DNA of 64,000 bases. It comes from Sclerodactyla briareus. Its lineage: Eukaryota; Echinodermata; Holothuroidea; Dendrochirotida; Sclerodactylidae. The notes under the pieces are model-generated. The model saw only the letters and a program-made list of their open reading frames with translations. It searched no databases and had not been told where the DNA came from. Positions 1,366 to 54,961 of the stretch are shown here, one piece after another. The stretch lies in the NCBI GenBank assembly GCA_026419785.1, contig JAODTK010002588.1:186001-250000 (forward strand). Direction: 5' to 3'. The position numbers and the translations under genes were made by a program. Numbering within the stretch: position 1 is the stretch's first letter; the number at the start of each line of letters is the position of its first letter.

Positions 1366-1398
<33 letters not shown>

Positions 1399-4836: not shown

Positions 4837-7800
4837 TGTGGTCACCATTGATGACAATTTTTTCCGTGCTGACCAGAACCTTGTCATTGTTCGCACAATG
4901 GCAAATTGTTGTCAGTAGGATTGGCCCATATTTCTGACAACCGACAGATTAGATTACAGTCGATGCTTTACTTCTTTCACATAATTTGTCAGTCTGTCAG
5001 TATTTTTCGTGCCAATATTGATTGAGTGGAATACTTTGTCCGTGGAGATACCTTAGTTTGCGCGCAGCCATCTTTAAAGTACGTGTTCAAGATTCATACT
5101 TTTAAATATGCCGACGAAGGCTTACCATCGATCCGTAATTTGTACAATCGCACAGGGGGGGGGGGGGGTGTGTTATCACTATGCGGTGTGAAATGATCAA
5201 ATGGATATTTGATGAGGCAATAAAAATTCCCGCTCGTATGAATGGCACGGGAACCTTGCACGATTCACTTAAGTGGTTACATGAACTGCAACCAGTTTTC
5301 CTCGTCAAATACAACATTTATGTTAGTTCCGGATCATGGTGATACAAATAAAATCTGACTATCTCCTATAAGTCGGATGTCTCGGCGGGTCAGGAATGAT
5401 TTTTGAGTACTCCAGATCGTGGTGAGTTGCTTAGTGTCACACTGCTTCCAATTATTGAGGGAATGTGGGCTTCGGGAAGAATCGTGGATATTCTTATAAC
5501 TCGCAATTTTCGCAACAGTGGATTTCACGTATCGACATCGCCATGCTGCAATGCCAGATTTCGCGATTCGCACCTGAAGAATGAAATGAGCATTCGATGT
5601 ACTCCTCCCGTATTGTGCCGCAATTAAGCACCACTCTATTCGGGAATTTTCGGCTATCCTTTTGGTTTAACTGCTCCCGCTGTTTCCATGATTGCCGGAG
5701 CTCCCGCAAGAAGGTCTGTCCGAATGTCCTCTCTCCACATTCGAAGAGATATTGTTTCGGTTGCGATAAAAGGTCGTTCTTTTGTCACCTTAACCCTAAC
5801 CTAATTATACTGGAGAGTAGCACTATGTAGATCCTGCTGACGAACACGCTCTATATAATCGTTTCAGAGACTTCCAATATCCAGACGATGGGGCAATATC
5901 CTACATAGGAATCTTCGCATTGCCATACAACCAAACTCGGTTTCAAACCTCATGCTTAGTACATAGGAATAACCGTAGCGCTGAATGTGCAAGTTACCCC
6001 CGTTATTATCGTGGTAACTATTCGAAGGGGAAAATAATGTGTCATGCATACCAAGTAATTTCCATCGTCTTCACTGTAGGATGTACCAAATATCTGACTT
6101 ACCTTATGCTATGTGTTCCTCTGGCCATCTTCTCTAAGTGCCTGCCCCCGGGGTCTGGGGGGCGCTACTAGCATCGATGGAGAATTGTAAGGCCCCTGCG
6201 AATAAATGGAGGAACACTACATGTCCTACGGGCGAAAATTACGCTACCAAAATATATATATACATAAACACCTTCTAAATACTATTTGACATCACTCTTT
6301 GGAACGCGTCGATCTCACGTTTGACATTCTTCATACAAGTGAACACTACACGCTTAACACTCGAACACATTAGGCTACCCTCATTATTTGACACAGGTTG
6401 AGCAATTATGTGAGTCTTCAACAAAAACAGAAACTTGATAGCACTTATCCTCTCACTTGACGCAAGCTCGAAGCTTGCAGAGGTTGAGGGTCCTACACAA
6501 CAAATCTGTGCGAGGAGCTCAGCTATACGGCGGGAATACGGCTACACCTCGTCGACGTGGACAACTTAATTCTCAAGGGCATCGAGGGGCACATTCACTG
6601 ATGATGTGGGTGGACGACATAAACGTAGAAAAAAGACGACCGTTGTGGTGGCCTATTTTCGTAAACTTGACGGATGTACCTTTTGGATAATATGACTGAA
6701 AAAGCATAGGCCTGCAATGTCGTTTGGGGATTATAGTAAATGTTCGCATAATTGAACCCACCAACAACACTAACTCCTCTTTCTATCTATTACTGTTCCC
6801 ATCGACATTGAATATATGTCAGAAAGAGTGGCTTCATAACGTAGACTTACCTGTCATACACTCCCATATGACTACAGCCATAGACCAGGCACTAGCCGAT
6901 GATATTCCATTGCCTAGAATCGCCTCAGGAGCTAATTGGGTTTCGAGAACACGTCATCTGTAAAAACAAAAATAATAATTTGGTTAACATACCCGAATCA
7001 ATATTTAGTTCACTTGACACTATATTGGCATATTGACATGCTATTCCCAACGAAAATCTTTTGATTGCATTACACAATTAAGTTAGGCGTTTGTAACTGA
7101 ATTTACCAACCGAGCACACAGGCAACGGAGAACCTTATCACATTCTACCTCCGGAAATCTTTATTGGTTATAAAATATATGCCTACTGAGATATCCACGG
7201 CCGCCAACCATTATTCCCCCTTGTTCCCTCGTCCCTTAGTTTAGTTTAGTTTTAGTTTAGTTCGAAAGGGTCAGGAAGACTGATCCCTCATTAACGACCC
7301 GAAACTCACAAAACCCAAGAGAAGTACAAACAGAGCTCAAGAAATCGCCCCCAATGTCCTTTAATCACACTGTTTCTTGAGGCAATAAAACTATTAGAAT
7401 AACCACATCTGCGGGAGGTTATTCCACCATTAATCACGTTTGATGACAGACCAGTGGCTCCGGTCTTGGTGAGGGCATTTACAAATTTACGCAAATTCGT
7501 ATGAAATTATAACCTACCTTCTCTTCATCATCATCACTTTACGAGGAGCATCCTCTGAGAGGCAGAAGTCGTAGAGCTTTGGTGTTCTGTCACCGTAAAC
7601 AAATCTTCTTGGATGATAAACATGGTGTACAAGCTAGTGGTAGTAAAATGACATAATGTATTTCTATTGTCAAAATTCCACAATAATGTATTATCATCAC
7701 TGGGAACATGCGACATAGGGGCCACACCCATACCTTCACACAACTGTTAGAAAAGTTTTTGTTCAGAGCTCAATCGTGTATAAAAGCATCGATCTGGGAT

Positions 7801-8204: not shown

Positions 8205-8354
8205 CCCGTAAGGTGGACGACTTCCATTCCTTTCAGCAATCCCCAAGTAATCCCGTTCCGCAGGTAAGTCTTGAGTGTTGGTGGCGCTCCTGGGGCGTTT
8301 CTCTGTACGATTCGCTTGAATGTGGCTCTCCATGGTAACACACGTCAGGTACTC
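8205..8354 (-). CDS. Candidate internal coding exon (copy 1), product unrecognised
   Basis: On the minus strand a GTTAGTGCAG acceptor is followed by about 150 bases ending at a GTAGGT donor. The second copy (40,842-40,692) has 151 bases between a pyrimidine-rich TTTTGCAG acceptor and GTAGTT, and there the frame is open throughout as 50 codons starting EYLKSPGVHG and ending near IAERNGSRPLLRG. In copy 1 single-base indels break the first half, but the IAERNGSRP part is intact. Nearly equal length, a shared frame and splice-like edges support a real phase 0-0 exon. I do not recognise the protein family. It lies on the same strand as the IgSF receptor and about 7 kb downstream of its transmembrane exon, so it could be a cytoplasmic exon of that gene, or belong to another gene. 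The donor is weak. Confidence 0.42.
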
Positions 8355-10778
8355 CTGCACTAACATCATTTCACTGTGCCGATATAGTTTAGATATTGAG
8401 TCATGATATTGATATATAATGCTAGATGTTAGATTAGTGCCGTGAGGAAAGACTATAAACTAAATCCATCCAAAGTGGCTTCGTGTACTGGTCGACGATG
8501 CAACACCGAAGAAATGACTTTTCATCTTAAATATGCTCTTTTTTCTGCTGATCTCATAGATTGAATGAACAAACAGTACCAAAGATACAGTCAGATTCCA
8601 AAACAGAATAGAGCAAGTTACCGCTCGTTTGAAGCTTGGTAGAATCCTCTGCTCGACACTCCCGTAGTTCATCAACATACTTGCTTTTTTTTTCATTATT
8701 CACATGATCACTCTGATTGATTACCATACTCTGACAAGGCTTTATTTCATTCGCGAAACTGGAGTCACCCCTGTTTGTCTCTCATCTAGCGATTGACACT
8801 ACTGTAACATTCCGAAAGATATGTGTTCTGAAGGTTTCGGTATTGCTACTACGACATGGCCTCTATGCTGCCTCCTCACTACGCACAAAATCGGGAAGGT
8901 GGTTATTTTTTGTTTCGACTTCCAATAACTTACAGGACGTTTGACAAACCGGCGGTCACAGTGATATCACTTGCTTCAACAATTTAAGAAACGTCGGTCT
9001 GAACCATGGGACTTCGTTTGTCATGACCGTAGAACGGTTAATTAGAAGACGATGGATATTATACACGAACCTCCATCTATGCCGATTGCTTTGTCTTAGT
9101 AATTCCCTCGACCTCAGGTAACTCAAGGACTCGCTTCACGTAGATATCCCACTTGTTATTCTCGCTTCGCAATATTTGTTCTGTGGAAAAGTTGGAGACA
9201 TTGTCATTACTCTCGCTTTGGGTTGAAGGTGCTTTTTAAAGGCCGAAACAATTACCTTAACTTTACTGGAATCGGATAGGAGAATACAATGGGTTAACAA
9301 AGTATAATTTAATATTGATCGCATATATTTTTAGACGGGCAGAATTATAATTCCAATATAATAGGATGCGGTAGGGGAGGCGGGGTAAAACAGAACAGAG
9401 TGACTGCAATGTGGTGGAAAAAATTGGTTTGCACAAACCTGGACGGCCGAACGACGACGCATTTACTGGCTTGTTCGGGATAGCGATACTTCCCATCCAT
9501 CGGTTGTGGATTCTTCCCACCTTCATGCTCATCAGAATACACATGCTCGTGAGAGTGAAACAGTCGGCAGAGGCAACGTTGTCTTTCGAAGTCAGAGTAG
9601 TAACTATGAAACACGAACGAAGGAATATTGTCGTTGTACGGAAAATTCGAGATATTTAAATGTGCCCCATATGTGTCCGTCGGTCGTATCGTGCCTTACT
9701 TTTGTAAAACGGCTGTCTGAAGGCTTCGCTGGGTGGCGTCCACAGGCAACGTCTGGGCAGATTCATTTGCCATGGACATTGGTTGGCAGATTCCCCATTG
9801 TTTATTGCAGTGCAGTGTAGTGCTGACGCTAACTTTGTGCCGGAATGTGGGCGTCACTTCGGACATACTTGGTCGCGTGTGAGAGGTCTGGTTTTATGAA
9901 CTTGAAACTGATATAGTTCAGTGTCAGGCGTTACTGTGGTCTCGCAGTATTCTTTGTCGCCACCGGCCTACGTGGTAGTAGCTGGGCGGGTCGGGCGTCG
10001 AGGGTCTTTCTGAAGCATTCGGATCTTGGACAGGACGCTGCGGTGCCATCCTGGTTGATTGAGGGTCTGCACTTACATAATTCAGCCGGGCCAGACGTCG
10101 TTGGGGATGTTACCGTCTCGTGGTATTGGTGGTTGCTACGACGGCTCGAACCTCTCTTGGTCGTCTGGAGTCAATTTTCGCGGAGTGCGGGGTTTGAAGT
10201 GGGCATGCCTTCTTGGAGTGCGCGTGGCGTTACGTACATTGGGCCTATACTCCGGCGTCTGTGAGGTTTACAGTAGAAGGTATTAGGGGTTTAGGTTGAA
10301 ACATCGTGGGGTTATTTCTACTATTGGTAAGAATATATTTGTATTAAGGGTGACAATATAGTGGAAGGGCTTTCAGGTAGTACTTTAGGTAAGGCTCTAT
10401 TTTTGTGAGGGCTGTGAGGTTAAGTCATTCGGTTTGGGATTAGGTAATCAACCCATTACCATAAAATTGAGTATTCAGTGGTATCACTCTTAATGATTTC
10501 AAAAGGGAAACATGAGGCTATTTGAGATTTCAAGATGTTACGCGTGATCTGGCCATGTCCACCTGGTGTATGAGGGATGGGTGACCAGCATCACCTACTT
10601 TTCGGCACTTGGCTTGGAGGCCAATGGTCATTAAATATGAATATCTTTTGGTACTATTTCACATCAGGGAAGCCAGAACTCCACACCGAATGTCAGCCGA
10701 ACTCGAGTGTACCGAAAGGTCATCAGCTGGTGCGAAATTTTTGGCCTTGTGACACGCACAGGGTAACCGCAGATCCCC
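8355..10778. other. No gene recognised
   Basis: Alignable to 40,843-43,370. Around 9,420-9,700 an antisense frame is fairly long in both copies, but the residues do not agree between them, so I leave it uncalled. Confidence 0.45.
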
Positions 10779-15409: not shown

Positions 15410-15533
15410 CTGTTTTTCTCCAGACGATAACGCCACCGCTGCAGCAGCTAGCACTATAAGGATAATCCGCACTACCACAGAAGATACTATAATGATGGTG
15501 AAATCCTCGTCATGTTTTTCGGGAATCAATAAT
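15410..15533 (-). CDS. Transmembrane exon of IgSF receptor (copy 1)
   Basis: The minus strand shows acceptor CTCTGTTGTAAACAG, a 124-base exon, then the donor in CAG|GTGAGC. It enters in phase 2 and leaves in phase 0. It encodes a short acidic stem (IPEKHDEDF), then about 25 hydrophobic residues (TIIIVSSVVVRIILIVLAAA and AVAL), then SSGEKQ: one membrane span with one arginine inside. The donor is kept in copy 2 as GTGAGT (47,775), with the same hydrophobic run. The preceding Ig3 exon ends in phase 2 by length, so the junction is in register. It anchors the receptor in the plasma membrane with the Ig domains outside. The first tail exon was not found with certainty; a Penelope-like element fills the following intron. 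Confidence 0.68.
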
Positions 15534-15817
15534 CTGTTTACAACAGAGAAATGTAAAAAACATTCGAACCAAATATTATTCGCGTACTCTAGCTATCCAG
15601 TTTAATTAGAGATGCGAAGAACTCTCGGATAACTCTTGCCGGGTAACACTGTTACAGTGTTGGGCGATACAGCATATCTATGGGGACAGGACCCAACCCA
15701 AACGAGAATCGCCCAAGAAACATCGGGGTCTAGTCCTAATTCCAGGACTCACTAGGAGTGAGCCTACAGGCCTTCGTACATCGAAAAATGAAGAATTGAC
15801 TCATTGTTCCTACATAC
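15534..15817 (-). other. Intron between Ig3 and transmembrane exons
   Basis: Bounded by GTATGT at 15,817 and the acceptor CAG at 15,534-15,536 on the minus strand. Nothing else recognised. Confidence 0.5.
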
Positions 15818-16226
15818 CTCAGTCTCCGATTCCTCCCCACCAAAAGATTCAACGCTCTTTACTATTGACCGCGTCACGGGTCGCCTCACTGACGTCGAGA
15901 CTATCCTTTCGATGCTATACTCTCTCTTCATTTTGTTTTCGTGATAGCCAATGGTATGTCACTTATAGTAAACGTGCCCTCGTTTGATGTGTGGATGCCG
16001 TGGCGTCTAGCGTCATACGTCAACACACTCGATGGCCCGTCTTGCGGTGACATCAACCCTACCACTCGATGTCGGTGAGGCGATTTCCGTCATATACTAC
16101 AGCTAGATTCACTGGCGTCTTGCAGCTCGACCAGACATGTCAATGCGTGGTCTTCTGTATCTCTGACGATCAGGATTTCCGTGTTTACGATTTGGTCGTC
16201 AAAGAACATCAGCATTATCGGTGAAA
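15818..16226 (-). CDS. Third Ig-like domain exon of IgSF receptor (copy 1)
   Basis: Acceptor CCACTTTTAG (CCACTTTTCAG in copy 2), a 409-base exon, donor GAG|GTATGT. Copy 2 is 410 bases between matching edges (49,111-48,702). Entering in phase 1 it reads V-SPTMLMFF, then IVNTEILIVRDTEDHALTCL, a typical Ig A/B-strand with its first cysteine, then KTPVN-AVVYDG, then (frame change) NEGTFTISDI, the usual E-strand wording of Ig folds, and further residues to the donor. The second disulfide cysteine cannot be placed with certainty because of indels. By length the exon ends in phase 2, which the transmembrane exon needs. It is expected to be extracellular and ligand-facing. Frames break at different points in the two copies, so I treat the breaks as likely read errors. 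Confidence 0.65.
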
Positions 16227-18059
16227 CTAAAAGTGGATTCAGCAATGTAGGAAAAGCAATATCACAAAGTAAAGCATCGAGGAAATTTGTATGACGAGTA
16301 TGACTATATTTAAATTGTGAGTTTTGTATATAGTCAGCTAAGGTCCTTCATCGTTGAACTCGTGTAAAAGCCATATGAGAACTTATTGTTTTTAGCATTC
16401 AGTGCTAACACAGTCGACCTCAAACAGAATTGCAAACAAGAAGGCGCAGTAAGAAAATGGATTGTATTCAGAACATTACTGGAAGTAGAAATGGCATTAC
16501 TAAGGTACATTTGTCATCTATACCTCAACATAACCGAGATGTTGGGATAATAGTGAGCTCGCCTTCAATGTAGGCCTGTTTTCATGAGACGATCTCCATT
16601 GTTTAATCATCCTGCCCATGCAAACATCAATTTAATTCACCATATGGCCGAGCCGTCGCTGTTCAGTACGCGTGCTTTCAGTCAACAAAGTGGAAGGAGA
16701 AAATCCGAGATAATTGGCCATTCCAGAATGTCGCTCGTTCGACCTCCCTAGGCTACACACGGCTTGGATAGAGCTCAAATCACCCGGGAGTAAGTCTGAC
16801 AACAGATCACTACAATACATTCATTCGAGAAGAAACAACTACTTATGAAAATGGAGGTAAAATGTCGCACTCTCCCATCTGGCTCCGCCATGTGGTACTA
16901 TGGAAATTTCTAGCTCGAACCTGGACTCTATTGCTACAGCTTTGTTTTACGTCTTGATCTGAGCTGAGTTGGAATCGGACATTATTGACATTGCTAAATG
17001 TGCTTCTCAGAAACGTGGCTTTCTCTCCCTCTCGTAGCTGACTTGAGCCCATTATTTGGTGCGACTCTACAAGATCAATTCGTTCACAGCTTGGGTATTG
17101 TTAACACGTTTGGGGAGGCGCTTCTCGGTATTGGTATCCTCGACAATATCCAGTCTAAGGCCCTTATACTCATCAGAGATGTTTCCCTCAGTGCTGCACT
17201 TCAACCTCTAGGGCATTTCAGATGTGTTGCTGCGTCTAGCTTCCTCCCCCCCCCCTCTCTCTCTCTCTCTTGTCTAACAGTTACTTCCTTAAGCCTGCTC
17301 TCTCAGGTAATATCTATCATGCTGCTCACCTTCCGCCAGATCGTGTGAGTATTTCGTGTGCATCATGAACCGCTATGCTCTTTGCTGTAACCTGCAGCCA
17401 CACGGTCTCTCGCTTTTCCACTTTCGTTGCAAGAGCTCTACCTCTAAATGCCTTGCCTTCTCATCCTCCAAAACCTCCAGGTTTTCAAGTCTAGTGTTAC
17501 AATCCTCATCTCACTCTCTTCATTCCTACCTTTTTTAATACCGGGCCTCGTTATAGGTTTGTCTTTGGCTCTTCTTTTTTTCATAAGAGAAGTGGCTTGT
17601 AGGATATTATGAGCGAAACGTGCTCGTCGGTTTGGTGGCAAAACGAAAAGCACATTCCCATTTTCCCCCCCCCCCCCCCCCAATCCCCCCCTGCCAACTT
17701 CGGGTTGATTTAGAAGGATCCCTGGTCTTCAGGAACAGTGCGCAAACCAGGTCTCTTACCTAGAGGTTCTACCCATGGGCTATTCTCGAGATCTGCAGGC
17801 TGCTTGCAAGGGGGGGGGGCAATTAGAAATTGGCTTCTGATATTTTCATATGCGTTGACTCTTGAACGGACAGGCTTCGTTCCTCAGTTGCGCATGTTAA
17901 ATCGAACAAGTGACCGGGTCGGTTGTAGGTATTGAAAAGATAAGTGACTCATCAAACAATTTGAAGCACAAGCACAAGATTACACTGTGCGCCCCTGTGA
18001 GGCATCTTCAACAAATGCACCAAATGACTTTATATTATCTTCGCGCTTAGTGACGCTAC
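16227..18059. other. Intron between Ig2 and Ig3 exons
   Basis: It holds an antisense LINE 3' fragment (16,830-17,560), a CT repeat with C-run at 17,245-17,273, and a long C-run at 17,665-17,682 that is missing in copy 2. The rest shows no recognised content. Confidence 0.5.
16830..17560 (+). mobile_element. LINE (Jockey/CR1-like) 3' fragment, frame-broken (copy 1)
   Basis: Plus-strand frames read DIIDIAKCASQKRGFLS near 16,980, then ILDNIQSKALILI and DVSLSAALQPLGH near 17,140-17,215, then a serine-rich end containing STSKCLAFSSSKTSR near 17,440-17,500. This wording (ASQKLGFL..., LLD-IQ-KA-RLI, SLQPL-HRR, then RTSRLWNSLP) is the C-terminal end of LINE reverse transcriptase polyproteins. The catalytic FADD and PQGS boxes are absent, so it is a 5'-truncated dead copy. 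It sits in the Ig2-Ig3 intron, opposite to the receptor gene. Copy 2 has lost about 355 bases of it. Confidence 0.68.
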
Positions 18060-18384
18060 CATAAGTGGAAATCGACATCCGGACGGAGGCTTCTCTCTCA
18101 TCTTTTTGAACCACCGGTTTGGCAGGTGATGTTGTTGCCAATCTTCTCTTCGGCCACCCGGGGCAAAGCACGACTTTTATGGACTTTTTCGTGTCGACCG
18201 GTTCCATCATGCCGGCGCCAATACCTAAACACGGTGTGTACATATCTGGTAGTGGGTAACCTGATCACCGTCGACTGTCCCTTCCAACTGTGAGTCAGTA
18301 TTGTCACTTCATGCAAGAACGCGTGAAGGGTACGGCATCTGTGAACCGGTTTCAATAAGGATTTTCTTCCGTGGACACCATCCA
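18060..18384 (-). CDS. Second Ig-like domain exon of IgSF receptor (copy 1)
   Basis: On the minus strand an acceptor GGATTTATCAG at 18,385 starts an exon of about 325 bases ending TATG|GT. Copy 2 has the full GTGAGC donor there. Entering in phase 1 it reads VDGVHGRKSLL, then with frame changes an AVTLRC-like B-strand (clearest in copy 2), LEWTVDG (C-strand tryptophan), PTTEIY, DGTVDTKKSIKVVL, and ends with a KKIGNNITCQT F-strand. The cysteines near 18,314 and 18,123 are about 65 codons apart, the normal Ig spacing. The exon ends phase 1, as is usual for Ig-domain exons. Role: extracellular module of the same receptor. Boundaries rest on agreement of both copies. Confidence 0.6.
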
Positions 18385-19609
18385 CTGATAAATCCCGAAC
18401 TGGAGGAATTACTATTAAAAAGTAGAGTGTGATTTTTTTTTCATATAACCAAACAGCAGAAACGGTCATGGGCTGAAACAACTTTTTCTGTTTCCGCTCA
18501 CCTATTATCATGAAGCTGCCAAGGAGAGTGGGGATTACTACCACTCTCCACACAGTTCGATTGTGTTGATAATATTATCGACGTCGTTGAACTTATGGAC
18601 ACTAATAACCGAAGTTGTTTGCACGAAATTATTAAACCAAAAAAACGCTATCAATTGAATACATCATTCACCATGAATATAACGGTTTTACGTGATCGAG
18701 TTGCGTGCCGGATTGTATGTGGAATGATGTCAAAGTATAAGGTCAAAAGATTGTAAGGAAGCATCATTGGCATGTCCACGTATGTATAGTCCACATGCTT
18801 ACGATTGAGGTCCAGGCACATTTTGCCAGAACTATCACTGAGTCCTGGAGGCAGTGAAACGTCTAGCAGTGTAATCACCAAGAGTAGTGAAGGGTAAAAT
18901 GGATCGTAATTGGTTCATCGTTGAGCTTGTGTAATCCGATAAGCTACGAAAAGCGACGGGCAGCAAGTCATGTGTAGGCTATATAAATTATATATATATA
19001 ACTATATAAGTATATAAAGTCCCCCTATGGTAGGTATACTTCTTTAGTTTTGGTATTTTGATATTACCTATTAACATGATGCCGGAAATGGAGTATCAAT
19101 TATTTTTTGAGGAACAGTCCTAAATGAGCGACCCTGTTATTAGGCAGAAAGTTGTAGGCCGCGACATTTTGGACGATTGGATTGACTTCGATAGACCTCA
19201 TTTAACATTTTCACACGTGTATATCTTAAAGTATTGTATATTATTGTCGGTTCGACAAGGAGAAGTTCCCTAAACTCGTTAGATGAAGAACGGGCCTTTC
19301 AGATAATACTCTTAAACAAAATACTCGTATCTGTTGCGTCCTCGCTGATCGCTCAGGAACAAGAATTGGAGCAGGAAAACGAGGGGGTAGCAATTGGAAA
19401 GTTTACGTATGATACCCCAACCCCAAACTCAAGGTACCTCCAAAGAGGCACTTTGTCTAATTCCGTGACCTGGTGAAGGATAGCCGCAGCTGACAATAAG
19501 GTCCAGTTTCCAGGTCTGCACCCTGCTTGGCCTGATTGGACCAATCCTCTAGCTCGACACTAATAATAAAAAACAATGTAGTAAGGTTATTAGCAGCAGC
19601 TCTACTTAC
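18385..19609 (-). other. Intron between Ig1 and Ig2 exons
   Basis: Starts at the GTAAGT donor on the minus strand (19,609). It contains an AT dinucleotide tract near 18,985-19,015. Copy 2 carries about 390 extra bases in this intron. An open stretch near 18,651-18,881 (minus) is not kept in copy 2 and is not called. Confidence 0.5.
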
Positions 19610-19928
19610 CGTTAACTTCCACGCAGAAGTGTTAACACGTACCGTTCGAAATAACGCGTATATATTCCTAATGATGGGGATTCGTTACGGCTATGTACGG
19701 GTGTAATTCTCCTCTCGAGATCAATACCGGCCCCATCGATGAAATTTGTTCCTAGGAAGACCGATGTTGGTGTACACTCTTGTCTCTGCTACACCCAAGC
19801 TGTAGCGGCCGGTACGTCACAGTTGAGCGCAAAGGATCACCTCCTACTGCTTCTACTCGGGTACAATTAGCTTGCAGACCCTCGGCAGATATCGCTACTA
19901 CCAACAGCATCGATAATAATTTGAACAT
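19610..19928 (-). CDS. First Ig domain (V-like) exon of IgSF receptor, with possible start (copy 1)
   Basis: Comparison of both copies gives one open frame from an ATG at 19,928: a short hydrophobic lead (MFKIIIDAVGVAIS, a weak signal-peptide candidate), then CTRVDAVEGDPLRLNCDV, a classic Ig B-strand. The exon closes with Y-CVEVN at 19,625 and a strong GTAAGT donor, phase 1. The cysteines at about 19,820 and 19,624 lie about 65 codons apart, fitting an Ig V-type domain. The matching exon in copy 2 is 52,791-52,483. The start is uncertain: an aspartate interrupts the hydrophobic lead, and a TTCTGCAG acceptor-like string also occurs just before NCTR in copy 2. The family (immune-type receptor, adhesion protein or receptor kinase) cannot be told from the ectodomain. 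Confidence 0.62.
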
Positions 19929-29740: not shown

Positions 29741-30258
29741 AAATGTCTATCTGTGAAGCTTATTGTTCGATATTATGGTAGTTTTGGGATAACTGGGTAC
29801 AAACCATTAGATGCAAACTATCTAGGAATTCTAATGATTTTTTCCTAGAATATCCATTTTGAAGTCACCAATTAATAGCAACACGTGGATGCATGAATTG
29901 ATTCTTCGAGGGTTAGATATATTTACTAGTGTGTCCTGGTAGTACAATAACATTTAAATTTCGGCCTATTCTGAGTCTACTGTAACCCTCTATTATCATA
30001 TCCACATTGTCTCAGGTAATCAAAATTGTTTTCCTCGTAGAAATGTCTATCCTGTCAAATATATTTCCGTATGTTATAGTCATGTGGAATACCCATAATT
30101 GGATACACCGAATTTACAAGGCTGCCTTCTTCAGACCAGATAGCTTGTACATACAAGTCTCGTTAACAACTAGTAACATAAGTCCACTTCCCCTCACACA
30201 TAGCACAGCCGTAAAAAATGAACGGCCACTCATAGCCGTCCTGCGATGCACCATTATT

Positions 30259-37500: not shown

Positions 37501-40500
37501 AGTTTGTACAAAGCACTGTTTATCACATATGCGGTGTGAATATGAATAGAATGGATTATTTGGAGGGCACTACATTAGTCCGCCTCGTATTAAGGCACGG
37601 GAAGCTTGCAAACGATTCACATAATGTGGTTACAGTGCAACGCCAAACCATTTTTTTTTCCCGTCAAATACAACATTTATGTTTAGTTTTTCCTCCTGAT
37701 CAATATTGATACACTAACTCTGCTATCTCCTATAAGTCGTATGTTCTCAGCGGTCAGTAATGATTTGTGAGTACTAGGGAGGGAGAGGCACGTGGTGAGT
37801 TTTTAGTGTCCCCCGGCTTCCCATTATGAGGGAATTGGTTTGGGCTTCGGGAAAGAATCTCGTGCATATTGCTTATATATCGCATCTCGCAACATGGATT
37901 TCAACTACGCCGATCGCTCATGCTTGCTGCAAGGCAATATCGCCCCCGATTTCGCACCTGAAGATGAATGAGTAAGGCAGAGCGCGATGGTACTACTCCA
38001 AGTAGTGTGCCGCATGTAAAACAACCACGCCTATTCGGGAATATTCCGAGCATAGCGTTTCGGTTTTAAACAACACGCTTCACCTGTTCAAATGATTGCC
38101 GGAGCTCCCTCAAGAAGGTCTGTCCCGAATAGTCCTCTCTCCAACATTCGAAGAAGATAGTGTTTCTGTTGAGAATAAAAGGTACGTTCCTTGTCACCAT
38201 TCATACCCTAGAACTTGATTATACTGGGAGAGTGCACTATTCTAGAGCCTGAAAGAACACCTCTAATAAATCGTTTCAGGAACTTCAATACCAGACATGG
38301 CCAATCATCATACAATACGGAATCTTCGCATGCCATACGAACCCAAACGTCGTTCAAGAACCATCCATCTTAGTATTATGGAAAATAAAACCGAGCGAGC
38401 GGCCGAATTGCAACTTACCCTCCGTTGAGTATCGTGGTACTATTCGAAGGAGGAATTTTCTATGGTGATGTCACTGATAGCTCCAAAAGAATAATGTGTC
38501 CATATATGCCAGGCAATTTCCATCGTCTTCACTGTTAGATGTACCAAATAGTCTGACGTTTACCTAATAGCTATGTGTTTCCTTTGGCCATCTATCTCTT
38601 CGTGCCGCCCGGATTTCTGGTGCGCTACTAGCATCAGGAGAAGGGTAAAGGCCCCTGCGAATAAATGGGAGTGCACAGTAACATGCCATAACGGGCCGGA
38701 ATTACGCTTCCCAAAAATATATATATCACAAACCACCTTCTAATACTATTTGACAATCACTCTTTGGAACGCGGTCGATACTCACGTTTAACTTCTCGTA
38801 CAAGTGAACACTACACGCTTAACACTCGAACACATTAGGCTAACGCCTCAGGTATTTTGACATCAGGTTGAGCCATTCTGTGTAGTCTTCAAACAACAAC
38901 AGAAACTTGACACACTCATTTCTCTCACTTGACGCAAGCTCGAAGCTTGCAGAGGTTGAGGGTCCCAAACACAAATGATACGTGCGAGGACGCAGCGAGA
39001 CCGGGAATAGCGGCTATACCTCGGCTGACGTGGACACTGATTCTCAGGGCACAAGGGCACATTCACTGATGTATGTGTGTGAGACATACATAACGTAGAA
39101 AAGACCGACCGTTGTGGTTGCCTGTTGTTCGTAAACTGACGGAATAGTACATTTTGGATATTGATCTGAAAAGAGGGCCTTCAATGTCGTGTGGGGATTA
39201 TAGTCTGTGAATAACTAAACCCCCAATCAACACTAAGAACTCTCTTTATATTATACATGTTCTTCCCAATCGACATTGAAATATATGTAAGCAAGAGTGG
39301 CGTTTAATACGTAGACTTACCTGTCATACACTCCCATATGACTACAGCCAATAGACGGCCGGCATCACTATCCGATGAATATTCATTGCGTAGAATCGCC
39401 TCAGAGCTAAGATTGGTTCGAGAACACGTCATCGTAAAAAACAAAAATACTAATTGGGTCCCATACCCACCAGAATGCATATTTCGTTCCCATTGACACT
39501 CTATTTGCATATGACTGATATTCCCGACTAAAATCTTTTGATTAGCATTGTTACAAGTGTAATGTGTTTTGTAACTGAATATAACCAACCCTACCACAAC
39601 AGGGCAACGCTGAGAACCTTGATCACATTTCCTTCAGTCCAGGAAATCGAGTTGAATATGAATTTAGATTTCTCTCTTTGTTGGTTATAAATATCTGTCT
39701 ACTGAGTATCCACGGCTGCAACCAGTTTTTCCCTTTTTCCCTATTCCCAGTGCCTATTTAGTTTAGTTTAGCTTATTTAGTTTAGTTTAGTTTGGAAGGA
39801 AAAAACTGAGTCCTCATTAAGAACCCTAAACACAACAACCCAAGAAGAAGGACAACATATCTACAATGGAAATCCCCACCAAGTCACAACTGTTCTTGAA
39901 GGCAATAAAACATAGAAGAAACCACATCTGCCGGGAGTGTAGTCACCTTACTCACGTTTGATGACAACGTGTCTAGAGTCTGGGGTAAGGCAATTTACAA
40001 ATTTACGCAAATTCGTATGAACATATAACCTACCCTTCTCCTTTCAGCATCATCACTTACAGGACAATCCTCTTCAAGACAGAAGTCGTAGAGCTTGGGT
40101 TTCTTGGTCAGCTGTAACAGGATTATAAACCAGGTGTAACAAGCTAGGGTATTAAAAATTACATGAGGCAATTCATTGTCAAATGTACACAATAATTATC
40201 ATTCTCCCTGGAACATGCGACATATGGGCCACGATCATACCTTTCAACACAAACCTGGTAAGAAGGTTTGGTTCAGAATCCATTGTGTATAAAAGCAGTC
40301 GATCCATGGAAGTCAAAGGTACATTTTGGATATTTATTGTCTCCGTTTCTTATGCTATACACGCGGGAAAGACCGGCGGGCACGCTGTCTTAGCGACTTA
40401 ACGAGGCCTGTATGCTCATATGACTTTACGAAACAAACCGCATCTATTCCACGACGTTGCATGCCATAACTTTGTCCACGTGAGTTCACTCTCGTGCAGA

Positions 40501-40691
40501 CAGTTTTTCTCTCGTGACAATGACTGCAAATTATTAGCCTTTCTTCTTAAACTGTCCGATATGAATCCATAATTCCCTCCAATGACAAGAGGCATCTTTC
40601 TTGTATGTCACATCCACCTAACCACCACCACCACCGGTCATCGTGTTACAGAAGTTATTGCATGATTTGAACACTATGTTAACCGAACTAC
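34568..40691. other. Copy 2 counterpart of 2,330-8,204, no gene recognised
   Basis: Same content as copy 1, including the identical 63-base block at 37,133-37,195 and a longer TTTAG tract at 39,759-39,795. Confidence 0.45.
39759..39795. repeat. TTTAG-type short tandem repeat (copy 2)
   Basis: About seven AGTTT-type units with one ACTTATTT-like interruption; longer than its counterpart at 7,238. Confidence 0.8.
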
Positions 40692-40842
40692 CCCGTAAGA
40701 GTGGACGACTTCCATTCCTTTCAGCAATCCCGTAGATCCCGTCGCAGGTCCGAATCTTGATGTTGTCGCGCTCCTGGGGCGTTCTCTGGACGATCGGCTT
40801 GAAGTGGCTTCTCCCATGTACACCGGGGGACTTCAGGTACTC
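40692..40842 (-). CDS. Candidate internal coding exon (copy 2), product unrecognised
   Basis: The cleaner of the two versions. A TGTTAGTTTTGCAG acceptor, then an open frame of 50 codons (EYLKSPGVHG, FKPIVQRTPQERD, IKIRTCDGIYG, IAERNGSRPLLRG), then a weak GTAGTT donor. It matches 8,354-8,205 in length and wording. No domain family was recognised. The strand agrees with the IgSF receptor, so a cytoplasmic exon is possible but unproven. Confidence 0.45.
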
Positions 40843-43800
40843 CTGCAAAACTAACATCAGTTTCACTGGTGGGCCCGATTATAGTTTTAGATATTGATTT
40901 AATGGAATATTGTAATTAATGAAGATGAAGATGTTTATATATAAGTGCCGGGTTAAAGAAAAGAACTAAATTGCACTTAGAAGCCCATCCAAAGTGGCTG
41001 ATGTTACTGGTCCGTACAATGGCCAACCGAAGAAAATTTAAACTTACTTTTTTTTTCCATCTGAAAGATGCTTCTTCTTCTGCTGAAGGTCCCATAAGAT
41101 TGAATGAACAGACATGTTACAGAAAATACAGTCCCAGATTCCAAAACTAGAATATAGCCAGTTTTACTGGCTCGTTTGGAGCTGGCATAAATCTGCTCAA
41201 TATTTCAGTAGTTTTCATAACAATAATGTTGAATTTTTGTTATGTATTCACAGGTGATCACTCCTGAATAATTACAAAACTCCGGACAAGGCTTATGTTT
41301 ATCGCGAAACTGGAGTCCAACCCCTGTTTCGTCTCTTCAGGCTCAGGCGATTTGACAACTACTGTAGACTTTCGAGAGATACTGTGATTCTGAAGGGTTC
41401 GTAATTGCTACTAACGACATAGCCTCTATTGCTGCCTCTCACTAACGCAATCAAATCGAAGTTGGTGTAATTTTTTGCATCGACTTGTTGCTTGTCCATA
41501 AACTAAACAGGACGGTTGTGACAACCGCGGTCATTGTAATATTCAACGTGCTTCAACCAATTTAGAAAACGTCGGTGTCTGAACCATGGGACTTTCGGTT
41601 GTCAGACCGTAAAACGGTTTTTTGCAAAACTAAAATACTATGATATATTGACAGACGAACCGTACGTCGATGCCGAGGCCGCCCTGTCTTAGTAAAGTCC
41701 CTCGACCTCAGGTGACCCAATGACTCGCTTCACGTAGATATCCCATTGTATTTCTCTCTCTCGTCCGCAATATTTGTCTCTGGGAAAAGTTGGAGATATT
41801 GTCCAATTACTCTACGCTTTGGTTGGGACAGGTTGCTTTAAAGCGAAACACTTAAAGCTTTACTGAAATCCGGGAAGGAGAATACCATTGGTTAGAACAA
41901 AGGTATATTTGATGTTAGATTAGACGGGGCAGAATTAATTAATAAAATAGGAAATACTGTAGGGTAAGGCCGGTGTAAAACACGATGGTGAAATGCATGT
42001 GGTGGATTGGTTTGCACCACAACCTGTTGACGCAAAAGCGACGGACGCATTACTAGTCTGGTGTGTCGGGAAAGCTGATACTTCCATCCATCTGTTGTTG
42101 ATTCTTCCCAACCTTCAGGCTCATCAGCATACACAGTCGTGAGTGTGAAACAGTCGGCCCAGAGGCACGTGCTTCGAAGCAGAGTAGTAGACTATGAAAC
42201 AGAAAGATGGCATATTGTCGATGTACGGAAAATCGAGATATTTAAATGTGCCATATGTGTCGTCAGTCGTATCGGCTTACTATTTGTAGAAGAAACGGCT
42301 GTCGGCAAGGTTACGCTGCGGTGGTGGAGCACAGGCAAACGTTCTTGGGCTGATCTCAGTGCCATGGATTGGGTTTGCAGGATCCCCATGTTTATTTTGC
42401 AGTGCAAGTGGAGTGCAGCACGCTATATCTTGTGCCGGGATGTGGGCGTCACTTCGACATACTTGGTCGCAGTGTGAGAATGATGGGGGTTGTATGACTT
42501 GAAACTGATATTAGTCCAGGTCAGCGGACGGTGGTCTCGCAGTATTCCTTTGTCTCCACCGTGCCTACGTGGTTAGTAGATGGGCGGGTCGGGCCGGTCG
42601 AGGGTCCTTTCGGAGCTTATCGTAGCTGGGACGGACGTGCGGGTTGCTGTAACATTCATGTCAGCCGGAGCCGCGTGTCGATGGGGGGATTGTTATACCC
42701 GTCTTCCTGGTATGTGGTTGAGTCGACGGCTCGAACACTCTCTTGGTCGTCTGGAGGTCCATTTTCGCGGTATTGCGGGGTTTGCAGTGGGGCATGCTCT
42801 AGGAGTGGCGTGGCTGTTACAGTTCCACTGGGCCTAGATCCGGCGTCTGCTGAGGTTTACAGTAGAGCAGTATTAAGGGGTTTTACGTTTGAAACATCGT
42901 GGGTTATTTTTACTATTGGGTAGATGATATATTGGATTAAGGGTGACAATTTGTGACGGGCTTTCAGGAGTACTTTAGTGTAAGGCTCGTAGTTTTTTGT
43001 GAGGCTATGAGGTTTAAGTCACTTAGTTGGGCTTAGTGTATCACCCTGACTTGAATTGGAGTATCAGTGGTAATCACTCGTATTGATTTCACAAGGAACA
43101 TGAGGCTATTGAATATTTCAAGATTGTTACGCGTGATCTCATTGGTGGGGGGTCTATCCTGGGTGTATGAGGGATGGGTGAACCAGCCACCCTCCTTTTT
43201 GGTTGGCAACTTGCCTGAGGCCATGGTTTCTGTGAATATGAATGGACTTTGGTACTATTTGCCACATAAATGGAAGCCAGAACTCCATCACGAATTTCGG
43301 CGAATCGAGTGTACCGATAAGGTCAAATCAGCTGTCGAAATTTTTGCCTTTTGACCCCATCCCACAGGGGATCTGCAGATCCCATATACCAACAAACTAC
43401 TGATTGATCCAAAACTAGTTCACAAAAATCCAGAATAATCCCCACTTAATTGCAGGAATATATTCTGTCCTGTTAATCATGGTGCAGGGATGGTTAGCTT
43501 TTATTACTGTTATTGAGTTTAACGGGCAGCCTAATTCCTCGTTCCCACCTGAATTCATAGATTCCTCAATATTCTCAAAAGTGAATTGAAATATCTCCAT
43601 AAGTGGGGGAGTTTCGGAATGTCTCTTTCCATGTGCTATTTTAAAGCAGATCTGTCGTTACCTGACATTGGCCTCAACGCCTTCCGTACGTTACGTGACT
43701 ATTGACCTTTAACGGGGCCTTATCCGGCGCAGTGTTAGATTAAACTGCAGTGGTCTCGTAGATTTTCCCTGAGGTGTAAGTTACTCCCTACCTCAGCTCT

Positions 43801-47774: not shown

Positions 47775-47902
47775 CCGGTTTCTCTCCGGACAATAACTCA
47801 CCACCGCTGCAACAGCTAGCATATAAGGATGAATCCCACTACCACAGAAGATACTATAATGATTGTGGAAATCTCTTCATTGTTGTCAGGGAGGAAATCA
47901 TA
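47775..47902 (-). CDS. Transmembrane exon of IgSF receptor (copy 2)
   Basis: It reads TIIIVSSVVVGFILI and a leucine/serine continuation broken by an indel, then a GTGAGT donor at 47,774. The acceptor CAG seen in copy 1 is blurred here, so the left edge is approximate. It matches 15,533-15,410. Confidence 0.6.
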
Positions 47903-48701: not shown

Positions 48702-49111
48702 CTCAGTCCCGAATCCTTCTCCAACGAAGAGTCAACGCTCAACTATTGACGCGGAATAAGGTAGCCTCGGACGTAGAGACAATCCTGTCGATGCAAATAC
48801 TCCTCATTCATTTTGTGTTCGTGAAGCCAATGGTGATGACGTATAGAACCGTTGCCCTCGTTCGATGTTGGTACTGTGGCGCTAGCGTATACGCAACAGG
48901 AATTGATGGACCCGTCTGCGGTGACTCAACCATCACACCCGATGTCGCGTGGGGGGGAACCCAGCCGATTTCCGTCATATACTACGGCTATATTCACTGG
49001 CGTCTTGCAGCTTGTGCAGACCATGTCAACGCCTGGTCTTCGGTATCTATGACGATCAGAATTCAGTGTTTCCGATTGGACGTCAAAAGAACATCAGCAT
49101 TGTTGGTGAAA
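48702..49111 (-). CDS. Third Ig-like domain exon of IgSF receptor (copy 2)
   Basis: Acceptor CCACTTTTCAG, 410 bases, ending GACTGAG where copy 1 has the GTATGT donor (here GGTGGA, a probable base error). It reads CKTPVNIAVVYDGNRLG, DGSINSCCVYASATVPTSN-EG, then HEHKMNEEYLH with frame changes. Combined with copy 1 this gives a continuous Ig-like reading. The 161-codon plus-strand frame over this exon is its antisense shadow. Confidence 0.6.
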
Positions 49112-49779
49112 CTGAAAAGTGGATTCATCAAGTAGGAAAAAAAAAGATATCCCAAAGTGAAAGCATCGAGGGAAATTTGTACCTCTATTGGAGTATGACG
49201 ATATATAAAATTGTGAGTGTGTATATAGCAGCTAAGGTCTCCTGTTGAACTCGTGTCAACGACATATGAGGACGCGAGTGTTTAGCGTACATGGCTAACC
49301 AGTAGACTAAACCGACTGAAAACAAAAGGCGCAGTAAAAAAAAAATTGATCGTATTAGAACATTAATGGTAGTAGAAATGGCATTGCTAAGGGTAGATTT
49401 GGTCATGTATTACCTCAACATAAACAGAGATGTTGGGAGAATCGAAGGAAGCGTCATTCCTAGTCAGCGCGCCTCTCAATTAGGCCTGGTTCTTAGACGC
49501 GCCTGCATTGTTTAATTATCCTGCCCCCGTGCAACATCATTTTAATTCACCAATGGCCGAGCCGTCGCTGTTCATTACGTTCAACGAGGTGAAGGAGAAT
49601 ACCAATATAATTGGCCATGCCAGAACCGCTACTATCCGACCTCCGCCATGCATTGTCGGCATGTCGATTGTTCCGCCGCCCTCCCCTAGGATACACACGA
49701 CTTGTAATAGAGCTCCAATCCACCCGGGAGTAATTCAACAGATCACATACGTTCATTTCGAGAAAAAAAAAAAAAAACC

Positions 49780-50135: not shown

Positions 50136-50658
50136 CCATACCGGGGGCCTCGTATAGGTGTGTCCTTGGCTCTTTTTCTCATAAAATTTTGTTTGTAGGA
50201 GCATTATGAGCGAAAACCTGCTCGTCGTTTTGGTGGCAAAAACAGAAACGCACATTTGCCATTTCATCCTGCCCACTTCGGTTAGATTAGCAGAACCCTG
50301 GTCGTCAGGACGTCGCTCGTAACCAGGTCTCTTCCCTATAGGGACACTGGGCTATTCTCGAGATCTGCCAGTTTCTTGCAAGAGGGGGGGGGGGGGGGGG
50401 CATGAGAGAATTGGCTTCTGACGTTATCTATCGTTGACTTCTGGACGACCGTCTTCATTTCCTCCATGCGCCATGTTTAAATCGAACAAGTGGAACTGTT
50501 TGGTTGAGGTATGAAAAATGTAACTAAACGATAAGTGATCATCAACAATTTGACACAAGATTTTACACTGCGCACTGTGAGCAATCATGAAACATGAATG
50601 ATTTATATATCTTCGCTTGGAAAATTCTTTCAGGTTTCTGTCTATTAGTGACGCTCAC

Positions 50659-50941
50659 CATAAGTGGAATCGACCTCCGACTGCGTCCTTCTTTCTTTCT
50701 TATCATTGATGTGTTGCCATCTTCTTTCGGGCCACCCAGGGCAGCACCGACCTCATGTCGACAGTTCCATCGGACGCAAGTACTCGAAACACGGTGGTAC
50801 CATATCTCGGTAGGGGGGTAACGTCCACCGTCGACTGTCCATTCTAACTTGAGTCGGCTATGGCCACTTCATGCAAGAACAGCGAAAGGGTAACGGCATT
50901 GTGACGGTTTCAATAAGATTTCACTTCCGTGAAACCATCCA
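50659..50941 (-). CDS. Second Ig-like domain exon of IgSF receptor (copy 2)
   Basis: Acceptor GGATTTATACAG, then VDGFTEVKS, VTMPLPFRCSCMK (B-strand cysteine), KLEWTVDGGRYPPTEIWYH (C-strand tryptophan), ending CACTTATG|GTGAGC. It is shorter than copy 1 by about 40 bases, and the NNITC strand is damaged. Phase 1 at both ends. An extra ~35 bases follow the donor compared with copy 1. Confidence 0.58.
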
Positions 50942-51396
50942 CTGTATAAATCCAGCTGGAGGAACTATTAAAAGTAGAGTGTGATTTTTTCTTCATATAA
51001 CGAAAAACGGGTAAGGGGCTGAAATACTTTTTTCTGTCCGCCTCACCTGTTTCATGGAGCTGCCGAGGAGAGTGTGGGACTACTACACTCTCCACACAGT
51101 TCGATTGTGGTGATAAATAATTCCGACGTCGTTGAACATGGTAAACTGAGAAACCGAAGTGTTGAGGAATCATTCACGCATCAAATGAATACAATAAATC
51201 ACCATGAAGGTTCACGTTTTAATGATCGAGTTGCGTGCAGGTTGACATGTGGTCAAATGCAGTCAAAGATAAGCGTCAAAAAGAGTATAGGAAGCATAAT
51301 TGGCATGTACAGGTATGTAAAGTCCACAAGCTTATGATTGAGGTCCAGGTCACATTTTGCCAGACCTATCAACTGAGTCATGGAGGCAGTGTTCCG

Positions 51397-51790: not shown

Positions 51791-52482
51791 CCCAAAAGTA
51801 GTGAAAGGTAAAATGTATTAAAAATGGTTCCATTGTGAGCTGGTTAAACCCGATAGCACGAAAGGCGACGGGCAGCACGTTCATGTGTAGGCTACATAGA
51901 GGCCGCAGTGGGCAAGTCCCCTATGGTATGTATATCGATATCTTTAGTTAGGTATCTGATTTACCTACTGACAGGATGCCGCAGAATGGAGTAATCTATT
52001 ATTTTTCGAGGAAACAGTTTAATGAGAGACCATGTATAAGGCGAAAAGTTGTAGGCTGCGACATTTCGACGATGGGATTGACTTTCGTTAGACTTCATTA
52101 CCATTTCAGTGTATAGCTAAACGTATTGTCTATATGGTCTGTTCGCACAAGTGAAAAAATCCCTAAACTCGTTAGATGGAGAAGAGGGCCTGGTCAGATG
52201 AGTACTCGTTAAAAAAAAATACTCGTAACCTGCTGCCGTCTCGCTGATCGCTCAGGACAAGGACTTGGAGCAGGGACAAACGAGGGGCAATTCGAAAGTG
52301 GTATGATGACCCACACCGCCAAAGAGGATTGGTCTGATCCGTGTACCAGTGAGGGATTAGCAGCTGGCAATAGGTGTAGTATGCAGGTCTGCACCTGCTT
52401 GGCCTTGATAGGACCAATTCTCTTGCTCTACACATATATATTATACAATGTAGTTAATGTTATTAGCAGACAGCTCTTTTAC

Positions 52483-52791
52483 GGAACTTCCACGAGTAGT
52501 GTTAATCGGTACTTCGAAATACATGCGTATATTCATAATGTGGGGATTTGCGTTACGGCTATGTACAGGGGTAATTTTACTCTGCGAGATCAAAACCCGC
52601 CCACGAGGAAAATGACAGGAAGACCGATGGTGGTGTATCACTCTTGTCTGTGCATACACCCAGCGGTAGCGGCTGTACGTCACAGTGGAGGCGCAAAGGA
52701 TCACCCTCTACTGCGTCTACTCGAGTACAATTCTGCAGAACCCATCGGCAGATATCGCTACACCAACCGCATCGATAATTATTTTTAACAT
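52483..52791 (-). CDS. First Ig domain (V-like) exon of IgSF receptor (copy 2)
   Basis: From ATG at 52,791: MLKIIIDAVGVAISADGF, then NCTRVDAVEGDPLRLHCDVQ with the B-strand cysteine at 52,684, then DKSDTPPSVFL, a frame change, and the counterpart of Y-CVEVN near 52,497. The donor reads GTAAAA here against GTAAGT in copy 1. The long plus-strand frame 52,303-52,788 is the antisense shadow. Confidence 0.6.
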
Positions 52792-54961
52792 GGTCATGAT
52801 AGGAGTCAAGTTTTTCAATATCGAATGGTTCAGACTCCTACGTCGTTTAGAGAATCCCTTACACTGGGAGCTGACGAAATTGTTCGTTGGAAACCAGCTA
52901 ATACGGAAATTATACAAACGAAGTGAAACTTACTTTCATCGTCTTGGATATGTTCCAATGCAGATGAAAAAGTGCACCATGCGTACCAGGCCGCTAATGT
53001 CGTGTGTTCAAACAGTTTACAAATATAGCAGAGATGAGACGAATGAAAGCTTCAATTAGGTCAATGAGGCCGCAGAGACGACGAAAACTGCCTTTATACG
53101 GGAGCATGGCTTAGTAACATAAGATAACAAGTAAACGGGTTCCGTATATTTTTTTTTTTTCCAATTTTGATACCCACCCCCAACGGGGAATAACTTGCTT
53201 AGCTTTTATCGTGTTGACTGACTCATAGTGACGAATGACGAACAAACCTCAAAACTTGTAATAATCCACCATTATAGAAAAACCATCACCATATTTTTGC
53301 AAAGGTGACAGAAAATTTTACCGATCGTCTTGTTTAGGAGATAGAAACCATCTGCGAATCCGACTTCAACTCCATCAGGTGCGTGTCATGACAAGTTTCT
53401 GGCAGATTTTGAATCGTGAAATTGGTCATCACAAGTCACGTCAAATCAACATACTTAACTGTGTGTGCACTATACGTAATGTTGCCACGGCTAAATGTCT
53501 AGAAAGACTGGAAAAGCTTTGACATTTCTTGAGGAACTCTAGGTTTCATCATAATCAGTCCGGACACCATATGAGTTTGTGACATGTTGCTTGCTGGGGA
53601 GTCAGCGAGAGTCTAACAATATTAACTCGCTGCGCAGCACAGGTCCCGTTTCAACAACCTGCGAAACAATATGGGTTTCGAGTATTAAGGCCTAACCTGT
53701 CGAATAACTGAATTTGCGACGGTTCAGAATTCAGTAAAAGATACCCCGCCCGAAAGCTTCGAACAGTCGAATAAAGCTTACCTAGGCCTACGTGGACTTT
53801 CGCGTATATCGCCTGGCACCAATTCACGACCCCCGAGTGAGAAAACAATAGCATGCCCAGGACTGTAAGTTTTTATTTACCACGTATTGCATATAGGCCT
53901 ACAGGCGCAGTTCAATTCCCACGTGGCAAACCGCTGTCACAATTGTAGGCTACAGGTCAAACGCTATGTGTGTCGCGATTTATGTTGCAGGGTATGATTA
54001 AGTACAATGAAAACGACTTGCCGGTTCTTGCTCTTCGGTCGGGGAATCATTTGAATTGCAAAAATCTCGACAACGAATCAGTGATTTGTTTAAAAAGCAC
54101 GAAATATGAGATTGGAATGTTTTCTTTCAAATATTCAGTTCTTGTTTGGTGCAGCGGGCTGTATAGAATTCCTGACCGATTTCAAATAATTGACTGAAAA
54201 AAATTGCTAGAAATGAAGATGGCGACTCATGAATAATATTTATAACTACTCGGGGAAAAAATGGGCTTCACCCGTTCTGACCAAGCCCCGCACTGTTTGT
54301 TAAGAAACGTATTTCTGCCAGCAAGTTCAGGGCTGATTAGTTTGTATTTCCATCTTTCAAGGCTGTTTAGCGCATTGAGATCCGGGAGTATGCGCTTTAT
54401 AAAAAAGAAGATACAGACAAAACCGCGAACAATTTCCGAAAAGGAGTGGGTGTACATAATATGGACTACTGGGGTATTTGTGAAGTGCGGGACTAACTCC
54501 CGTTGCCCAACTCCCTGCACGGTCCTCCTGGTTGCGCGATCACCGGTTAGTTGTGCTATATTGTACAGATTGACTTGAAGTTACCAGGCCCAAAGGAAAA
54601 CGCAAATTAAATTTCCAAAACGGAATAGGTGTTGAGGTTGTGTTTATTGGACCAACTCACATGTACGCCACCACGAAATTCAAGATAATCCCAAAGGAGA
54701 GACGGATACCCCTTTCTAAACTCATTGATTCGAAAGAGCGACAGATTCAAAGTTTAGAACGAAAACCGAACAGCAGAAGTGAAATATTTTGGGGAGTAAA
54801 ATGCTTCAGGCCCACCAGAAATAATTCTCTATGCCACTGATCCGAAGCAGCGAATATCGAGTTCAGATCGGAAACTCGACACAGCAGGAGTTGACCATAG
54901 TTTGGGCAGGCAATTGAAGAAATTTCATTACTTATATTATTTATTTATTATTTGTTATTAA
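52792..54961. other. Copy 2 upstream of the receptor, no gene recognised
   Basis: Counterpart of 19,929-22,144, with only one of the ~121-bp units (53,570-53,698). It ends in AT-rich sequence at 54,925-54,970. Confidence 0.45.

Follow-up and report, generated by a model that had tools for sequence, protein, structure and literature searches.

A candidate multigene family of immunoglobulin-like transmembrane receptors with a tyrosine pseudokinase domain in Sclerodactyla briareus

PTK7 (CCK4) is built from seven immunoglobulin (Ig) domains, a single transmembrane (TM) segment and a tyrosine-kinase fold without the usual catalysis, and it is usually encoded by a single gene. Members of the FGFR family carry three Ig-like domains, a TM segment and a kinase. 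The Alr proteins of Hydractinia are clustered, divergent Ig transmembrane receptors with short cytoplasmic tails and no kinase fold, and the ectodomains of ErbB3, ROR, RYK and EphB6 are built differently from those of the Ig receptors considered here. In general, a pseudokinase receptor is encoded by a conserved gene that occurs singly. In this study, we analyzed a window of 64,000 nucleotides from the holothuroid Sclerodactyla briareus (positions 186,001-250,000 of contig JAODTK010002588.1, named C2074 below), in which a first-pass annotation had read two error-riddled copies of an Ig-type transmembrane receptor gene. With a probability of about 0.7, we interpret the locus as part of a multigene family of Ig-TM-tyrosine pseudokinase receptors, two near-identical units of which would lie in the window. 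All genome searches covered the 319 Mb assembly of 3171 contigs.

The two proposed copies, c1 and c2, are real, but C2074 holds four units, and all four have broken frames:
Unit c1: window, about 1-26 kb, minus strand
Unit c2: window, about 30-58 kb, minus strand
Unit c3: contig 110-147 kb, outside the window; colinear with c1 and c2, with all four Ig/TM exons
Unit c4: contig about 55.6-73.9 kb; more diverged
Ig, TM and kinase exons follow one another in this order on one strand in c1, c2 and c3, and in c4 with at least the exon of Ig-like domain 3 (Ig3). Further conserved stretches were observed past the kinase exons, toward the 3' ends of the units (window 1076-2032 and 29975-30930; C2074 110.1-111.3 kb).

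Like PTK7, the receptors would combine an Ig ectodomain, a single TM segment and an apparently non-catalytic kinase fold; they differ from it in the number of Ig-like domains (two or three, all divergent), in the HPG and DFC motifs of the kinase and in occupying several loci. They would share three Ig-like domains, a TM segment and a kinase with the FGFR family, and FGFR3 is the best PDB match of a relative on contig C2987, although not of c3; here, in contrast, the kinase motifs are those of a dead enzyme, the Ig exons stay under Pfam cut-offs and at least 11 places occur elsewhere in the genome. Receptors of the ErbB3, ROR, RYK and EphB6 type would be comparable in their probable non-catalytic signalling through partners. 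Hydractinia Alr would resemble the present array as a cluster of divergent Ig transmembrane receptors and differs from it in the kinase fold found here. Identity with PTK7 itself was considered and rejected on the two or three Ig-like exons and on a separate PTK7-like gene on C3080. This gene (L044, 39434-42700; L006 and L007) has both kinase and Ig exons, is distinct from the receptor family, reads VHADLAARN in its catalytic loop and matches the kinase query used below at E 0.0036 only; we take it to be PTK7.

Tyrosine-kinase exons and their catalytic motifs

The first-pass annotation had proposed a transmembrane receptor with Ig-like exons, blurred by errors, and had left an immune-type or receptor-kinase identity open. 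The receptor is supported, but its gene appears to continue into kinase exons: 6-10 kb beyond the TM exon, on the same minus strand and within the window, lie exons of a tyrosine-kinase fold that is apparently kinase-dead. Islands conserved between c3 and the window 3' of the TM exon read as kinase pieces on the minus strand. When read-through pieces of c1, c3 and c4 were compared with PF07714 (gathering cut-off 23.1 bits), all three matched: c1 (E 1.1e-9, 38.4 bits), c3 (7.7e-21, 75 bits) and c4 (5.9e-12, 45.9 bits). The C2987 relative, with its exons joined, also matched (2.8e-13, 50.2 bits). A single-frame c3 peptide, from the counterpart of the APE to alpha-F exon, matches PF07714 on its own at 2.5e-6. 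The best PDB matches were FGFR3 (E 1.2e-9), CSK and MET for the C2987 relative, and EGFR, CSK and PDGFRA for c3.

Five exon types were searched for with frame-tolerant guides from C2987 and from a further relative on C2995; as controls, we took the highest score at any other place on that strand and the highest on the opposite one. The kinase exons in the window are as follows:
9453..9544, minus strand, c1 kinase N-lobe exon (glycine loop to beta-3), degenerate; C2987 guide 75 vs at most 48 elsewhere; outside the Pfam match
9069..9181, minus strand, c1 alpha-C region exon; 81 vs at most 51 elsewhere
8205..8363, minus strand, c1 alpha-D/alpha-E exon; 52 vs at most 44; start of the c1 PF07714 match
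7515..7632, minus strand, c1 catalytic-loop and DFC exon; 77 vs at most 44; E 1.7e-8 when the genome was searched with the c3 reading
6849..6956, minus strand, c1 exon spanning APE to alpha-F; found at E 1.9e-6 by the c3 reading in the genome search; C2987 guide marginal, 43 vs 40
5698..5752, minus strand, c1 alpha-H/alpha-I exon (W-R-E-D..D-R-P-S); generic guide 45 vs 43 on the plus strand; position assigned from the colinear exons of c2 and c3
42030..42136, minus strand, c2 kinase N-lobe exon; 54 vs a chance score of 59 on the plus strand; position assigned from the colinear c1 exon
41659..41766, minus strand, c2 alpha-C exon; 57 vs at most 53
40689..40886, minus strand, c2 alpha-D/E exon; aligned with c1 and c3; the C2987 guide landed elsewhere
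40042..40158, minus strand, c2 catalytic-loop and DFC exon; 54 vs 40
39316..39416, minus strand, c2 APE to alpha-F exon; 55 vs at most 42; genome search E 2.8e-4
38081..38263, minus strand, c2 alpha-H/I exon; two guides, 53 each, vs 38 and 48 on the plus strand
For c3, the guides to the N-lobe, catalytic and APE exons were clear of their controls, the alpha-C guide scored 50 vs 49, the alpha-D/E guide landed elsewhere, and both guides for the alpha-H/I exon beat the control. With c3 and c1 guides, five types of kinase exon could be located in c4; the alpha-H/I search in c4 found no D-R-P-S signature. For the alpha-H/I exon of c1, a PTK7-like guide scored best at another place in that unit (window 4225-4304, score 50).

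Catalytic motifs were counted in the C2074 units and in the members on C2995, C2987 and C3134, with those on C1657, C2299 and C1227 left out. Three open exons on contigs other than C2074 read FLHPGLSTRKVLL..KLYEFC (L040), FIPGLSTRKVLI..KLYDFC (L042) and FLHPGFGLSRVRM..KLYDFC (L043); c3 gives LVHPG and then, shifted to the next frame, LSSKKILF..KLYDFC, and c4 reads LHPGLCSRKALF..KVYDFC. HRD is replaced by HPG (c3, c4, L040, L043) or IPG (L042), with the aspartate and the loop asparagine missing in all five readable sequences, and DFG by DFC (c1, c2, c3, c4, L042, L043) or EFC (L040), with the glycine missing in seven of seven. With these three residues apparently lost, the domain is most likely a kinase fold without phosphotransfer activity. 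A misreading, caused by errors, of an active FGFR- or Tie-type receptor tyrosine kinase would agree with the best PDB neighbours, which are active tyrosine kinases, and with the APE (kept in c1 and c3; PSE in C2987) and D-x-W-S motifs kept in the window family. However, three contigs besides C2074 show HPG/IPG and DFC/EFC in open exons, and we regard such a misreading as very improbable indeed.

Sequencing error and the paired units

Frame readings bore out the earlier statement that neither window copy has an open receptor frame. C2074 is noisy and unpolished wherever it can be tested. As yardsticks of error, we used its tandem repeats at 43.5-50.6 kb (period about 2.7 kb) and 22.6-26.2 kb (period about 0.9 kb); within three pairs of such unrelated repeats, mismatches amount to 7.3-7.6% and indels to 15.4-19.4%. 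Between c1 and c2, the corresponding values are 7.3% and 15.5% in 10 exons, and 7.7% and 17.8% in eight intron stretches. Exons, introns and unrelated repeats of C2074 thus carry similar indel loads, so that sequencing error alone would account for the broken receptor frames in the window. A decayed pseudogene array, with frames broken in the animal too, would be in keeping with the degenerate kinase motifs and with an intact frame in none of the four units, but it does not agree with this even indel load, with motif changes common to open exons on C2995, C2987 and C3134, or with the 71% identity (135/189, biased upward) of the c4 kinase to c3 guides (one exon c1), and is highly unlikely. The genes are presumably intact and expressed in the animal.

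The simplest reading of c1 and c2 is that they represent two almost identical true sequences blurred by sequencing error. Insertions of roughly 0.3-1.1 kb set them apart, so that they would be either two haplotypes or a tandem pair of recent origin. That the pair is an assembly product, with two haplotypes placed end to end, is compatible with a pseudokinase receptor family, and to this possibility we give somewhat less than an even chance: small-scale divergence between c1 and c2 is no greater than sequencing error on a contig that is unpolished where testable, whereas the insertions distinguish the two (though haplotypes can show such differences too) and the diverged c3 and c4 indicate an array on C2074 anyway.

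The near identity of c1 and c2 also makes their frame-tolerant alignment useless for choosing frames, as near-identical DNA aligns in every frame; exons of cleaner relatives and the diverged unit c4 served as frame guides instead. Pfam analysis of 10 of the 15 window open reading frames of at least 120 amino acids gave no match at E 0.01.

Several further repeats were observed on C2074. The repeat with a period of about 2.7 kb sits in a G+C-rich stretch (up to 62%). A scattered tandem repeat lies between receptor units (window 26650-27620; C2074 18.0-19.7, 79.7-80.4, 99.0-99.6, 165.0-165.7 and 181.3-181.7 kb), and a local duplication of about 300 bases occurs within c2 (window 56009-56610), 88% alike overall and 99% in one 74-base part.

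Immunoglobulin-like and transmembrane exons

Three Ig-like exons and a TM exon, which the first-pass annotation had placed in this order on the minus strand, are present in c1, c2 and also c3. Their positions in the window are:
19610..19928, minus strand, c1 signal-peptide-like start and Ig-like domain 1 (Ig1) exon; 82.5% identity to c2, 74% to c3; GT donor
18060..18384, minus strand, c1 Ig-like domain 2 (Ig2) exon; 75.5% to c2, 77.6% to c3; splice sites; acceptor uncertain by about 15 bases
15818..16226, minus strand, c1 Ig3 exon; 78.7% identical to c3 over a stretch including the exon
15410..15533, minus strand, c1 TM exon; hydrophobic stretch legible in c1, c2 and c3; splice sites
52464..52830, minus strand, c2 Ig1 exon; 82.5% to c1
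50645..50982, minus strand, c2 Ig2 exon; 75.5% to c1
48757..49128, minus strand, c2 Ig3 exon (matched part); genome search with the composite window reading E 1.9e-15
47816..47899, minus strand, c2 TM exon (matched part); protein E 0.53; DNA 86% to c1 at 47778-47880

The splice sites proposed earlier are present, with one reservation. On the minus strand of c1, GT donors follow 19610 (GTAAGT), 18060 (GTAGCG), 15818 (GTATGT) and 15410 (GTGAGC), and the c2 donor matching 18060 reads GTGAGC; AG acceptors precede 18384, 16226 and 15533, but Ig2 has a second acceptor candidate about 15 bases upstream. Among the peptides quoted at first, HALTCLV and GTFTISDI are read directly in c1 and LEWTVDG in c2, while GDPLRLNCDV is a composite (c2 has GDPLRLHCDV). 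The Ig3 frame that gives GTFTISDI is probably wrong: a reading with a Y-x-C F-strand scores 120 against c4 and the earlier reading 91, with highest values of 73 and 88 among 25 shuffles of each, a comparison that is not independent, as the Y-x-C reading was partly prompted by c4. Scores near 80-90 with the earlier Ig3 reading are unsafe, since a control stretch at 163.5-163.8 kb reaches 81. That stretch (C2074 163491-163837, minus strand), the highest control, overlaps stretches similar to window 59.0-59.2 kb and may be either a chance match or an Ig relic.

The Ig assignment is the weak part of our interpretation, and it rests on the cysteine pattern, on weak PDB matches that are mostly to Ig proteins, and on how the exons of a cleaner relative are ordered. 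The pattern expected of B and F strands, two cysteines about 55-75 residues apart, is seen in by-eye readings of Ig1 and Ig3 (with window frames inferred) and in Ig-like exon A on C2987. There, Ig-like exon A, Ig-like exon B, a TM exon and the kinase exons follow one another on one strand within 13 kb. A PDB search with exon B yielded hemolin (E 0.015) and SYG-2 (0.066), and Ig proteins made up seven of the nine rows listed. A guide made from c4 Ig3 found Ig3 in c1 (114 vs 58) and c3 (142 vs 62), but in c2 reached only 67 vs 64 on the other strand; on the C2987 relative it scored 71 vs 51. This chain from window Ig3 through c4 Ig3 to C2987 supports homology, although window readings had helped to establish the c4 guide itself. 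At the c1 Ig1 position, a c4 exon aligns weakly (68 vs 61 on the other strand). Ig2 is supported among the three close units only, with no c4 counterpart found. Of the guides made from the C2987 Ig exons, Ig3 was reached only in c3 (62 vs 59 on the other strand), Ig1 and Ig2 nowhere, and the TM exon not convincingly.

A number of observations weigh against the proposed receptor architecture. Concerning the ectodomain, c4 scored below shuffle maxima for the TM exon (43 vs 53), Ig2 (63 vs 69) and Ig1 (58 vs 68), the c4 Ig3 guide is not independent of the window readings, and C2987 exon B requires one frame switch. According to the first-pass annotation, the proposal would fall if both spliced reads over the junctions and an Ig profile match were lacking. 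The ectodomain has now been run, and Pfam gave nothing significant for the window Ig exons (by-eye readings), which is half of that outcome; all Pfam Ig models remained under cut-off on C2987 as well, where exon B gave Ig_3 and C2-set_2 at E 0.14-0.21 and exon A none. Concerning the kinase, the catalytic loop of c1 and c2 is too noisy for the HRD count, although KLYDFC is legible in both. The beta-3 lysine is not at its expected place in L045, L046, c1 and c3, but its loss would follow from position only, in an N-lobe that lies beyond the Pfam match and was placed by order alone. In addition, the composite queries, pieced together by eye from several copies, are biased toward matches between those copies.

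That Ig and kinase exons are joined in one transcript is likewise proposed from exon colinearity. Two adjacent genes on the same strand, the first for an Ig transmembrane receptor lacking a kinase and the second a separate kinase-like gene, would accommodate the gap of about 5.9 kb between the c1 TM exon (15.4 kb) and N-lobe exon (9.5 kb), and the C2995 relative, near which no Ig or TM exon was found (scores at noise within 5 kb upstream, itself a further point against the architecture). Nevertheless, order and strand are alike in c1, c2, c3 and partly c4, and on C2987 a TM exon is again followed by kinase exons, so that we consider two genes unlikely and prefer a single Ig-TM-pseudokinase gene.

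Relatives in the genome and possible roles

A search with the catalytic exon of C2995 gave 11 of 20 listed places at E <=1e-3, on six contigs besides C2074; these 11 include the query's own exon, and one has a stop. A search with kinase readings listed 28 places, nine of them at E <=1e-3 (eight on C2074 and one on C2995 at 2.9e-4), with weaker matches on C3134, C2987, C3080, C1227, C1657, C2299 and C1697. With an Ig3 plus TM query of similar noise, all eight places were on C2074 only. Long Ig arrays on other contigs presumably belong to titin-like genes. The assembly gave no match to COX1, to an exact 18S motif or, in a search run without a positive control, to the arthropod cuticle domain PF00379. 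Between c3 and c4, Ig3 is 36% identical (39/107) and the kinase pieces are 71% identical (135/189, one piece against c1), both values coming from guided alignments; the kinase value is biased upward, its guides having been touched by eye. The contrast between a conserved kinase and a diverged Ig3 would fit a recognition role, and relaxed constraint would fit it equally.

Under the preferred reading, one gene on the minus strand would encode a signal peptide, three Ig-like domains, a single TM segment and a cytoplasmic tyrosine-kinase fold spread over about six exons. The Ig ectodomain may bind a ligand or the surface of a neighbouring cell, and the kinase-dead domain may act as a scaffold or allosteric partner, either pairing with an active tyrosine kinase or docking adaptors. 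PTK7, ErbB3 and ROR are precedents of non-catalytic signalling through partners or adaptors. A recognition role of the family is possible by such analogy. It is doubtful that a large, tandemly renewed kinase-dead Ig receptor family, conserved inside and diversified outside, constitutes the cell-recognition or immune receptors of this animal and signals only via the pseudokinase. No such family was found among the listed titles of open-access literature, which is weak evidence. A study of the holozoan tyrosine kinome (PMC8662651) describes organism-specific tyrosine kinase families together with CCK4 pseudokinases, and a pseudokinase receptor family of this sort would therefore be no new category.

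At the level of the data, a noisy contig has proved readable through comparison of its own copies with cleaner relatives. If the interpretation is true, multigene pseudokinase receptors, partly in tandem and with fast-changing Ig ectodomains, would represent an unusual way of building recognition receptors, and the receptor family would provide a natural test of non-catalytic kinase signalling.

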